Assembly (NCBI GenBank): GCA_020445665.1
Contig: JAGRGD010000138.1
Location: forward strand, 1-44,983
Reading direction: 5' to 3'
Source: Rhodocyclaceae bacterium
GTDB taxonomy: Bacteria; Pseudomonadota; Gammaproteobacteria; Burkholderiales; Rhodocyclaceae
DNA: 44,983 bases
The position numbers and the translations under genes are program-made. This document shows, one piece after another, positions 39,986 through 43,166 of this stretch; the first letter of the stretch is position 1, and every line of letters begins with the position of its first letter. The notes under the pieces are model-generated. The model saw only the letters and a list, made by a program, of their open reading frames with translations, had not been told where the DNA came from and made no database searches.

Positions 39986-41071
39986 ATGAAGGAACTTGAG
40001 GTTGTCTATCGCGTGACGTGCGATGCGGTCGAAATCGAGGCGCGGGCACGGGCGCTGGCGGTCGAGCAGAGCGTCGAGATGCCGCCGGGCGCGATTACCG
40101 ACGCCCATGTCCTCGAGCAGGTGGTCGGAGAGGTGGCGGACATCGCGCCCGCGCAGGGCGGCAGCTTCCGGGTGACGGTACGGCTGTCGGTGGATAGCAC
40201 CGGCCTCGAGGCCGGGCAGTTGCTCAACATGCTCTTCGGCAACAGCTCGCTGCAGCGCGAGATCATGCTCGAGGACTTCGACTTGCCGCGCGCCGCGACC
40301 GCCGACTTCGGCGGGCCGGCCAACGGCATCGCCGGTCTGCGCCGCCGCCTCGGGGTGTATCACGGGGCGATGACCTGCAGCGCCCTCAAACCCCTCGGAT
40401 CGTCGCCGGCCGCACTGGCGGACCTGGCGGTGCGCCTCGGGGCCGGAGGCATCGATGTCATCAAGGACGACCATGGCCTCGCGGACCAGCGCTTTGCGCC
40501 GTTTGCCAAGCGGGTCCGAGCGGTCCAGTCGGCGCTGCGCCGGGAGGGCCTGCGGGCGCGCTATGCACCAACGCTGTCCGGTGGGGCGATGGCGATCGCA
40601 AGCGGACTTGAGGTCCTGCGTGACGAAGGCGTCGAGATGGTGCTGCTTGCGCCGATGATCTGCGGCCTCGGCACAATGCACGAGCTGGCCCGGGGACGAC
40701 CGGAACTGGCGATCCTCGCCCACCCGGCCATGGCCGGCGCAGCACGCATCGCGCCCCCGACGCTGCTGGGCAAGCTCTTCCGGCTGTGCGGTGCCGATGC
40801 GACGATCTTCCCGAACCACGGCGGCCGCTTCAGCTACTCGGCCGACACTTGCCGGGCCCTGGCCGGCGCGGCGCGGGACCGCTGGCATGGCCTCGCGGCG
40901 AGCCTGCCGGTGCCGGCGGGCGGCATGCAGCCATCGCGGGTGGCAGAGATGCGTGCATTCTACGGCGACGATGTGATGCTGCTGATCGGCGGTGCGCTGC
41001 TGGAATCGCCGCTGGGTGTCGAAGCCGCGGCGCGGGACTTCGTCGACGCGGTGCGAGGTGCCCCGCAATGA
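39986..41071 (+). CDS. RuBisCO-like protein (form IV, non-carboxylating)
   Basis: 361 aa, shorter than true large subunits (about 460-480). The N-terminal domain is about 1-115 and includes GQLLNMLFGNSSLQ, and the TIM barrel is about 120-355. Active-site equivalents are TCSALKPLG (Lys135 for Lys175), IDVIKDDHG (Lys160 for the carbamylated Lys201, Asp162 for Asp203) and VPAGGM. Glu204 is replaced by His163. The loop-6 Lys334 is lost; that region reads HGGRFSYS. It therefore should not fix CO2. Known form IV proteins are enolases or isomerases in methionine salvage, a methylthioribulose-phosphate isomerase in R. rubrum, or transcarboxylase/hydrolases in apionate use. The overlapping cupin gene favours the R. 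rubrum-like possibility, by inference only. Divergent from the EEP-family gene. Confidence 0.93.
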   Translation: MKELEVVYRVTCDAVEIEARARALAVEQSVEMPPGAITDAHVLEQVVGEVADIAPAQGGSFRVTVRLSVDSTGLEAGQLLNMLFGNSSLQREIMLEDFDLPRAATADFGGPANGIAGLRRRLGVYHGAMTCSALKPLGSSPAALADLAVRLGAGGIDVIKDDHGLADQRFAPFAKRVRAVQSALRREGLRARYAPTLSGGAMAIASGLEVLRDEGVEMVLLAPMICGLGTMHELARGRPELAILAHPAMAGAARIAPPTLLGKLFRLCGADATIFPNHGGRFSYSADTCRALAGAARDRWHGLAASLPVPAGGMQPSRVAEMRAFYGDDVMLLIGGALLESPLGVEAAARDFVDAVRGAPQ

Positions 41072-41517
41072 GCGACGCCCCGATCCGCAAGGCGACCGCA
41101 GCCGGGCGCTGGGAGACCGTGCCGGTGCACGAGTACAAGCCGGAAGGGTCCGCGCCGTTTCGCGACGTGACCCGGCAGGTCCTGTTCAGCCGGCCAGAGC
41201 TGGCCTGCGAGTGGCGCTATTTCGAGGTGGCGGCCGGTGGGCATTCGACCCTCGAGCGCCATGAGCATGTGCATGGGGTGATGATCCTGAACGGGCGGGG
41301 GGCGTGTCTGGTCGGCCAGGAGGTTCGGAGCGTCGGCCCCCATGATCTGGTCGAGATCGCGCCTCACACCTGGCACCAGTTCCGCGCCACGGAGGCCGGG
41401 CCTCTCGGCTTTCTGTGCCTCGTCAATGTCGAGCGGGACCGGCCGGCGCTGCCGGATGAAGCGGATCTCGAAGCCCTGCGCGCCGATCCGCGGGTGGCGG
41501 CGTTCATCCGCGTCTGA
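41068..41517 (+). CDS. Small cupin protein coupled to the RuBisCO-like gene
   Basis: 149 aa. Its ATG overlaps the RuBisCO-like stop (ATGA). It is a single cupin domain: motif 1 has His65-Glu-His67 and His69 (LERHEHVHGVMILNGRG), and motif 2 has His100 and His103 (PHDLVEIAPHTWHQF). The usual motif-1 glutamate is missing, so the metal site is histidine-rich. In R. rubrum a cupin next to the RuBisCO-like gene is the methylsulfurylase that turns methylthioxylulose 5-phosphate into DXP and methanethiol. The same role is a reasonable hypothesis here but cannot be proved from sequence. A terminator follows. Confidence 0.85.
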   Translation: MSDAPIRKATAAGRWETVPVHEYKPEGSAPFRDVTRQVLFSRPELACEWRYFEVAAGGHSTLERHEHVHGVMILNGRGACLVGQEVRSVGPHDLVEIAPHTWHQFRATEAGPLGFLCLVNVERDRPALPDEADLEALRADPRVAAFIRV

Positions 41518-41581: not shown

Positions 41582-42682
41582 TCAGGACACCGCCAGCATC
41601 CGGTCGAGCGCCAGGCGGGCCAGCTCGGCTTCGTGCTCCGGCACCTGAATACGATTGACGACGTTGCCCTCCACCAGGTTCTCGAGCGTCCAGGCCAGGT
41701 GCTGGGGGTCGATGCGCTGCATCGTCGAACACATGCAGACCGTGGGGGCCATGAACTCGACGACCACGCCGCGGGCCTTCTCCTCCTCGGCGAGGCGGCT
41801 CACCAGGTTGAGTTCGGTGCCGACCAGCCAGTGCGAATTGTCCGGCCCGGCCTTGATCGTCTTGATGATGTACTCCGTCGAGCCGACGTAGTCGGAGTGG
41901 ATGCAGACGTCGAGGTTGCTCTCCGGGTGGGAGATCACGAAACCCTCGGGGTGCTGCATGCGCCAACGGCGGATGTGGCTCTCCTGGAACATCTGGTGCA
42001 CCGAGCAGTGGCCCTTCCACAGCAGGATCTTCGCGCTCTTGATCTGCTCGTGCGTCAGGCCGCCGTACTCGAGGTCCGGATCCCAGACGTGCATGTCCTC
42101 GAGGGGGATACCCTTCTTGTAGCCGGTCCAGCGGCCCAGGTGCTGGTCGGGGAAGAACAGCACCTTCTCGCGCTGGCCGAAGGCCCAGTCGATGATGGTC
42201 GGGGCGTTGGTCGAGGTGCACACGATGCCGCCGTGCTCGCCGCAGAAGGCCTTCAGGTCGGCGGCCGAGTTGATGTAGGTGACCGGGGTGATCTGCTCGT
42301 CCGGCGTGCCGAGCACCTCGGCCAGCTCGCGCCAGCAGCGTTCGACCTTGGCGAGGTTCGCCATGTCCGCCATCGAGCAGCCGGCCGCCAGGTCCGGCAG
42401 GATCGCGACCTGATGGTCCTTCGACAGGATGTCGGCCACCTCGGCCATGAAATGCACGCCACAGAAGACGATGAACTCGGCGTCCGTCTCGGAGGCCAGC
42501 TTGGCCAGCTTGAGGGAGTCGCCGGTCAGGTCGGCATGCTGATAGACGTCGGCCCGCTGGTAGTGGTGGCAGAGCAGGACGGCGCGGTCGCCGAGCTTCT
42601 CGCGGGCGGCCCGGATGCGCGCCTGGGCCTGCTCGTCCTGCAGAACGTTGAACTGGTCGAAACTGATCGTGGCAACCTGCAT
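41582..42682 (-). CDS. nadA: Quinolinate synthase A
   Basis: 366 aa. The three cluster ligands are Cys74 (IVFCGVHFMAE), Cys226 (KGHCSVHQMF) and Cys316 or Cys318 (PTVCMCSTM). Other conserved parts are LLCHHYQRADVY, FFPDQHLGRWTGY and HPESNLDVC. It condenses iminoaspartate with dihydroxyacetone phosphate to quinolinate for NAD synthesis, using a labile [4Fe-4S] cluster. The start is the ATG with AGGA about 8 nt upstream; the frame stays open upstream without conserved sequence. It is preceded on the same strand, 31 nt away, by a rhodanese gene. Confidence 0.96.
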   Translation of the reverse strand: MQVATISFDQFNVLQDEQAQARIRAAREKLGDRAVLLCHHYQRADVYQHADLTGDSLKLAKLASETDAEFIVFCGVHFMAEVADILSKDHQVAILPDLAAGCSMADMANLAKVERCWRELAEVLGTPDEQITPVTYINSAADLKAFCGEHGGIVCTSTNAPTIIDWAFGQREKVLFFPDQHLGRWTGYKKGIPLEDMHVWDPDLEYGGLTHEQIKSAKILLWKGHCSVHQMFQESHIRRWRMQHPEGFVISHPESNLDVCIHSDYVGSTEYIIKTIKAGPDNSHWLVGTELNLVSRLAEEEKARGVVVEFMAPTVCMCSTMQRIDPQHLAWTLENLVEGNVVNRIQVPEHEAELARLALDRMLAVS

Positions 42683-42713
42683 GAGGGGTTCCTGCTGGAA
42701 AATGACGCGGGGC

Positions 42714-43166
42714 TCAGCCCTGGGTCCAGGGGAGGCCGGAGAATCGCCAGCCGCCCACCCGGTTGCGATGGCCTGCGGCGTCCTTGTCGCCTTCGAAGCC
42801 CTCGAGGACGTTATAGCAGTTCGTGTAACCGGCTTCCGCCGCTGCACTCGCCGCCGCATTGGAGCGGGCACCGCTTCGGCACATGAACATCACCAGCGCT
42901 TCCCGATCGACCTGGTGGGCGAGCTGGCTCAGGAAGTTCGGATTGGGCTGGCTGCCGGGATAGCTCAGCCACTCGATCTCCACCGCGTCCGGGACGCGGC
43001 CGACCCAGTCCCACTCGGCCTTGGTGCGCACATCCACGAGACGGGCGCCGGGGGCCAGTTGCCAGACCTCGTGAGCCTCCTTCGGGGTCAGCGCGCCAGC
43101 GTAGGGCAACTCCATCTCTTCGGCGCGAGCGTGCGCCAGCGAGAGCAAGGCGTTCAGTCTTCCCAT
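42714..43166 (-). CDS. Rhodanese-like sulfurtransferase, single domain
   Basis: 150 aa. The rhodanese domain spans about 25-145: ARLVDVRTKAEWDWVGRVP, and the active-site loop Cys96-RSGARS. The loop has the six-residue size typical of sulfurtransferases rather than Cdc25 phosphatases. No signal peptide, so it is cytoplasmic. It may relay persulfide sulfur. Its place directly before nadA, an Fe-S enzyme, is suggestive but not proof of a link. A candidate -10 (TATACT on the minus strand at 43203-43208) lies in the 56-nt gap to the divergent CDF gene. Confidence 0.9.
   Translation of the reverse strand: MGRLNALLSLAHARAEEMELPYAGALTPKEAHEVWQLAPGARLVDVRTKAEWDWVGRVPDAVEIEWLSYPGSQPNPNFLSQLAHQVDREALVMFMCRSGARSNAAASAAAEAGYTNCYNVLEGFEGDKDAAGHRNRVGGWRFSGLPWTQG

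Follow-up and report, generated by a model that had tools for sequence, protein, structure and literature searches.

A gene for a RuBisCO-like protein (RLP) that runs directly into a cupin gene in a Rhodocyclaceae bacterium raises the question of whether the two proteins carry out the methylthioadenosine (MTA)-isoprenoid shunt or some chemistry of their own. We examined this question for a stretch of 44,983 nucleotides (contig JAGRGD010000138.1, assembly GCA_020445665.1), referred to here as the window, together with related loci and whole genomes. The pair very probably represents the two-gene core of the shunt, as the original prediction had proposed. This reading is supported by the clade placement of the RLP, the identity of the cupin to Rru_A2000, the conserved pairing of the two genes, a natural fusion of both proteins, and the presence in the genome of mtnA and of a phosphorylase for MTA or methylthioinosine (MTI). 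All catalysis and metal binding discussed for this organism are predicted from characterised relatives. In Rhodospirillum rubrum, the cupin reaction uses glutathione and yields DXP and methylthio-glutathione, according to the available part of PMC5893883, and Rru_A2000 is described as an MTXu-5P sulfurylase in the available part of PMC4958253.

The overlap of the RLP stop codon with the cupin start codon was confirmed in the sequence (Table 1), and a GAGG lies nine bases 5' of the cupin start. Translation of the two genes is likely coupled through this overlap. An endonuclease/exonuclease/phosphatase-family gene lies 5' of the RLP gene on the opposite strand, and nadA is convergent on the 3' side of the pair. 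These flanking genes are also found in five related loci (L003, L004, L005, L007 and L075), all of them from Rhodocyclaceae MAGs and the nearest one included; neighbours conserved in this way indicate that the pair is long established in the lineage. As a separate observation, nadA and a rhodanese-domain gene adjoin on the same strand (window 41582-43163, minus strand), and both are kept in five related loci.

Table 1. Features of the RLP-cupin pair in the window.
Feature	Position	Strand	Description
RLP gene	39986..41071	+	ATG start, 361 aa; DeepYkr-type clade, predicted 5-methylthioribulose-1-P 1,3-isomerase
Cupin gene	41068..41517	+	ATG at 41068, stop at 41515-41517, 149 aa; predicted 1-methylthioxylulose-5-P methylsulfurylase
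ATGA stop/start overlap	41068..41071	+	RLP TGA (41069-41071) shares bases with the cupin ATG
KDDH motif, RLP residues 160-163	40463..40474	+	RuBisCO KDDE with E204 replaced by H

Neither gene is a chance open reading frame, given best matches in the PDB with E-values of 1.8e-102 (RLP) and 1.7e-53 (cupin). The RLP exceeds the cut-off of the Pfam RuBisCO_large model (55.4 bits, cut-off 30.1), and its best PDB match by far is 3qfw, with 53.0% identity over 349 residues of the aligned part; its assignment as a RuBisCO-like large-subunit protein therefore holds. The second match, 2oek, is named 2,3-diketo-5-methylthiopentyl-1-phosphate enolase (E 8e-33). We take 3qfw to be RLP1 of Rhodopseudomonas palustris and 3kgz, the best match of the cupin, to be the cupin of the same organism; a literature search found no paper on 3qfw. 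With the NCBIfam models, the RLP stays under the cut-off in every case, the best being the MtnW-type model PRK09549.

Phylogenetic placement provides the more specific information. In a tree of 112 rows, the window RLP falls inside a DeepYkr-type clade of 88 rows that also holds 3qfw (SH-aLRT 99; the tree was a quick one with this measure as its only support, and the fused protein from locus L061 sits on a long branch). The 88 rows had been preset as the deep set and comprise the best 80 of 90 relatives, L110, L111, L181-L184, the window protein and 3qfw; L109 was extracted and left out, PDB rows consist of aligned segments only, and the tree was built without the R. rubrum RLP and without a Photo-clade reference. 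The YkrW, OiaX-like and RuBisCO rows fall outside this clade, the first two as separate clades, so that the form IV placement suggested as a check on the original prediction groups the RLP with 3qfw and apart from the OiaX-like rows. The six RuBisCO rows comprise four of the 30 RuBisCO loci and the weak RLP matches L112 and L120. The label OiaX-like is our own and covers 14 rows; of eight that were scanned, L166 passes the OiaX cut-off and seven score 405-473 of 700 bits. The YkrW anchor, L180, passes PRK09549 (431 bits against 409) and fails TIGR03332 (368 bits against 513.6).

Two residue positions distinguish the clade, as defined in this analysis and not taken from a paper. The motif reads KDDH in 86 of the 88 clade rows (3qfw among them) and KEDH in the other two, and it is KDDE in all 24 remaining rows. 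The loop-6 column of Lys334 holds Arg throughout the clade (88/88), Lys in the RuBisCO (6/6) and OiaX-like rows (14/14), and Ser in the YkrW rows (4/4); K201, E204 and K334 are given in RuBisCO numbering. The window RLP thus has neither carboxylase mark, KDDE or loop-6 Lys334, and carries KDDH and Arg281 in their place. The replacement of Glu204 by His noted originally is real, and the reported absence of the loop-6 lysine is correct for the residue itself; the loop has not been lost, since Arg281 aligns at the Lys334 column. The idea that KDDH might indicate a different subgroup did not hold. As the common state of the clade, KDDH and loop-6 Arg mark the group and give no sign of a new one.

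The cupin leads to the same system. It exceeds the cut-off of Pfam Cupin_2 (37.7 bits, cut-off 27.2), matches no NCBIfam model at E 1e-5, and in the PDB finds 3kgz first, followed by 3jzv, deposited as Rru_A2000 (E 1e-52); the query for the Pfam and PDB searches began at 41065, one codon early, and so contained one extra residue. Identity is 61.4% to 3jzv over 145 aligned residues and 60.1% to 3kgz. The histidine-rich character claimed for this protein is borne out by H65, H67, H69 and H103, which all 64 aligned relatives share and which are likely metal ligands by analogy with characterised cupins of this kind. Cys117 is equally invariant (64/64), and our guess would be that it acts as a thiol carrier. 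The two structures 3jzv and 3kgz are 56.0% identical to each other, as would be expected if 3kgz is the cupin of R. palustris, since the R. rubrum and R. palustris cupins are given as 56% identical, and the RLPs as 53% identical, in the available part of PMC5893883. Measured against these values, the window pair (53.0% for the RLP, 61.4% and 60.1% for the cupin) is as near to the verified pairs as they are to each other.

To evaluate how consistently the two genes occur together, we scanned contigs and kept the best 80 of 90 RLP relatives. A cupin is present in the stretch around the RLP in 64 of these 80 loci and absent from the available stretch in 16. In 61 of the 64 it is a separate gene whose start lies at most 160 bases from the RLP stop; in the other three it is 3.2 kb away (L022), upstream (L073) or fused (L061). 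The fusion, in a distant locus, is a single 564-aa frame (L061:5884-7578, plus strand) that joins an RLP of the clade to a cupin, and it supports consecutive steps for the two proteins. The upstream case, on a Chloroflexi contig, has the reversed order with the cupin just before the RLP (L073:5555-5953, plus strand). Among 62 loci, L022 and L073 having been set aside, an overlapping cupin start is available in 36, a start within 30 bases in 23, one further away in two, and one is the fusion; these figures favour overlaps, as they rest on whichever cupin start is closest to the RLP stop. Many relatives offer a start at the -3 offset seen in the window.

Whole genomes show the same association. 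Among 31 genomes, the window's own included, an RLP is found in seven (E <=2.2e-113), each time with the cupin beside it (7/7, E <=8.1e-66), and in the 24 genomes without the RLP the cupin matches reach E 9.2e-7 at best. Weak RLP matches in eight further genomes of the 31 (best E 2.6e-10) were partly examined. When open reading frames were clustered across the 80 loci and the window, by a crude method, the widely shared families were the RLP (81 loci) and the cupin (64). A conserved third neighbour, such as a methylthio-glutathione reductase, was considered and rejected, as the remaining wide clusters overlie the RLP and cupin genes and look like antisense or shadow frames of GC-rich DNA. In ten of the 80 loci (L043, L048, L049, L051, L054, L056, L059, L070, L071 and L081) a metX-family gene (homoserine O-acyltransferase) lies about 1.5-4.4 kb 3' of the cupin, and the L056 copy is over the cut-off for MetX models. 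This gene might serve the final, methionine-forming part of the pathway, or its position may be plain synteny in view of the origin of the loci, eight of which are Burkholderiaceae or Burkholderiales and the other two Burkholderiaceae.

The genome of the window (93.65% complete, 341 contigs) carries the genes that would feed such a pair, on contigs other than that of the pair itself. The MTA entry enzymes for which the original prediction proposed a search are present: mtnA is found on contig C172 (385 bits, cut-off 279), and the single MTAP-family protein scores 393 bits with the S-methyl-5'-thioinosine phosphorylase model (cut-off 223) and 268.6-269.3 bits with the MTAP model, under its cut-off of 274.85. 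A hydrolase reaches 663 bits with NF006549 (cut-off 540), and its best PDB match is named 5-methylthioadenosine/S-adenosylhomocysteine deaminase (E 1.1e-152). The phosphorylase has 3ozb as its best PDB match (E 1.6e-77) and the hydrolase matches 4gbd and 4dyk; all three are presumably Pseudomonas aeruginosa enzymes. The hydrolase gene (L131:1489-2874, minus strand) is followed in the same direction by an OmpA-like frame, recognized by eye, and by ubiG (265 bits, cut-off 103). A class II aldolase gene follows mtnA, the two overlapping as ATGA (both genes within L128:9329-11031). The aldolase reaches 76.3 of 137.05 bits with the MtnB model and scores higher, also under cut-off, with fuculose/ribulose-1-P aldolase models. 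Of the 31 genomes, 21 carry mtnA, and 17 of these have such an aldolase near it; in one of the other four, G020, the sequence ends there at a contig end. The aldolase may be an Ald2-type enzyme of the DHAP shunt.

The search of the genome returned no match to acireductone dioxygenase (ARD, mtnD) and at most 25.8 bits with the mtnC model (cut-off 128.1); canonical oxygen-dependent salvage therefore seems absent, as far as an incomplete assembly can indicate. O-acetylhomoserine sulfhydrylase models are over cut-off at three of seven matched places, and dxs was found. Among the 31 genomes, 27 exceed the cut-off of the MTI phosphorylase model and 20 that of the mtnA model, so that both genes are traits of the wider group and not tied to genomes with the pair. 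Elsewhere in the assembly, contig C234 ends within a gene for a RuBisCO large subunit, of which it holds the N-terminal part; beside this gene, on the opposite strand, lies what by eye is a LysR-like regulator. CO2 fixation by the organism is therefore possible.

From these genes a route can be proposed. MTA would be deaminated to methylthioinosine and then cleaved by the MTI-type phosphorylase, or might undergo direct phosphorolysis, after which MtnA would form methylthioribulose-1-P. The RLP is predicted to convert 5-methylthioribulose-1-P to 1-methylthioxylulose-5-P by 1,3-isomerisation. The hallmark of a methylthioribulose-1-P 1,3-isomerase is 1,3-isomerase activity with a 3:1 xylulose to ribulose product. 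Using glutathione as its thiol, the metal-binding cupin would release DXP and methylthio-glutathione or methanethiol from 1-methylthioxylulose-5-P; DXP could feed isoprenoid synthesis and O-acetylhomoserine sulfhydrylase could return methanethiol to methionine. The aldolase beside mtnA would divert methylthioribulose-1-P to DHAP and 2-(methylthio)acetaldehyde, the reaction of Ald2 in R. palustris. Because of the gene set found, in which mtnD gave no match and mtnC stayed under its cut-off, MTA probably enters after deamination and the aldolase branch probably drains methylthioribulose-1-P in competition with the pair. The available part of PMC10663253 considers whether the shunt takes the place of Dxs in certain genomes. 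Since dxs is present here, isoprenoid synthesis does not depend on DXP from the pair, and sulfur salvage is the likelier use of the pair.

This arrangement combines features of several characterised organisms. R. rubrum (Rru_A1998 and Rru_A2000) likewise has a DeepYkr-type RLP and an Rru_A2000-type cupin, along with mtnA as in the window's genome, but its two genes do not have consecutive locus tags, whereas those of the window overlap. Entry in R. rubrum, as far as the available sources describe it, is through the MTA phosphorylase Rru_A0361, whereas here it seems to be through an MTI phosphorylase and a deaminase. In R. palustris, gene deletion and metabolite work assign the same two steps to RPA2169 and RPA2170 (PMC5893883, available part), and these genes (rlp1 and the cupin) are consecutive, as in the window. 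Elsewhere in its genome R. palustris has both mtnA and an aldolase of class II, there Ald2 (RPA4655) of the DHAP-methanethiol shunt, and therefore two outlets for methylthioribulose-1-P, as is probably the case here (PMC5893883, available part). The order differs: in R. palustris mtnP (RPA4821) adjoins mtnA (RPA4820) and ald2 lies apart, whereas here it is the aldolase gene that overlaps mtnA, with the phosphorylase gene on a different contig. The matches of the phosphorylase and hydrolase point to the route of P. aeruginosa, in which MTA deaminase is followed by MTI phosphorylase (PMC6302742, available part); in the window's genome, MtnA and the RLP-cupin pair are available downstream. Within a limited search of partly available literature, we met no description of the shunt together with an MTI-type entry, and we claim no priority for this.

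Other functions for the pair were also considered. The pair might have drifted from the shunt to another substrate, such as another 5-substituted 5-deoxyribulose-1-P: MTI-type phosphorylases may accept other 5'-modified nucleosides, as in the case of M. jannaschii MtiP (PMC6302742, available part), and 5'-deoxyadenosine would yield 5-deoxyribulose-1-P. We regard this as quite improbable, as the identities to the verified pairs, going by the partly available source, equal those between them, and a cupin would be useless with a 5-deoxy sugar yet accompanies the RLP in every RLP-bearing genome among the 31. A further reading, unlikely but somewhat easier to entertain, is that the RLP serves two salvage streams, one from MTA and one from 5'-deoxyadenosine, a waste product of radical-SAM enzymes, the latter passing through 5-deoxyribulose-1-P to DXP without the cupin; 5'-deoxyadenosine could share the path because entry is through a deaminase and an inosine-type phosphorylase. 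If true, the RLP would serve to turn spent SAM in general into an isoprenoid precursor. There is very little to recommend MtnW (2,3-diketo-5-methylthiopentyl-1-P enolase) of canonical methionine salvage with an acireductone-dioxygenase-like cupin as partner: acireductone dioxygenases are also cupins and the best NCBIfam model for the RLP is of MtnW type, but the scores of 154 of 409 and 107.6 of 513.6 bits are far too low, the YkrW rows form their own clade with KDDE and loop-6 Ser (4/4), the genome search gave no ARD match and mtnC did not exceed its cut-off, and the cupin matches Rru_A2000 with no ARD by name among its 27 PDB matches. An OiaX-kind transcarboxylase/hydrolase acting on a branched sugar acid is detectable as a model match of 54 bits in the RLP, against a cut-off of 700, and can practically be dismissed, as the 14 OiaX-like rows group in a clade of their own, in which every row has KDDE and loop-6 Lys.

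The MTA-isoprenoid shunt thus stands as the preferred reading for the pair, and the 16 cupin-less loci among the 80 relatives suggest what may happen where the second gene is missing. Six of them carry transketolase genes, and ten have neither cupin nor transketolase, although among these ten the available sequence is cut 3' of the RLP in L019 and 5' of it in L064 and L069. A gene for the C-terminal half of a transketolase lies directly 5' of the RLP in L063, L066, L078, L079, L080 and L082, and the N-terminal half was found in five of these six. Three halves were scanned, and transketolase models (for the C-halves dxs models too) match at most about half their length, under cut-off. Cupin and transketolase occur together in none of the 80 loci. 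An mtnA, MTAP-family or class II aldolase gene is close by in four of the six: mtnA is about 2-3 kb away in L063, L078 and L082, and an MTAP-family gene is directly 3' in L080. The split transketolase may be another way of processing methylthioxylulose-5-P, for which a natural hypothesis would be thiamine-dependent cleavage of 1-methylthioxylulose-5-P to glyceraldehyde-3-P. In the available part of PMC8102628, which has no occurrence of RuBisCO or cupin, a promiscuous transketolase acts in 5-deoxyadenosine salvage, and a transketolase-type step is said to have been suggested for M. jannaschii. A search of titles and abstract openings gave none on a link between RLPs and split transketolases among the matches listed, PMC8102628 coming closest.

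These results extend the shunt to a little-known Rhodocyclaceae-like lineage and suggest that it operates there alongside a deaminating entry and a competing aldolase. Through the methanethiol that they release, pathways of this kind may contribute sulfur gas in soil and freshwater (PMC5893883, available part). The clade survey provides two simple sequence marks for the group, KDDH and loop-6 Arg, and the natural RLP-cupin fusion ties both steps together. The pair itself is of an ordinary kind; what makes it interesting is mainly the accompanying enzymes and its odd distant relatives. The most surprising find is the cupin-less, transketolase-linked branch outside the window, which could hide an undescribed outcome.
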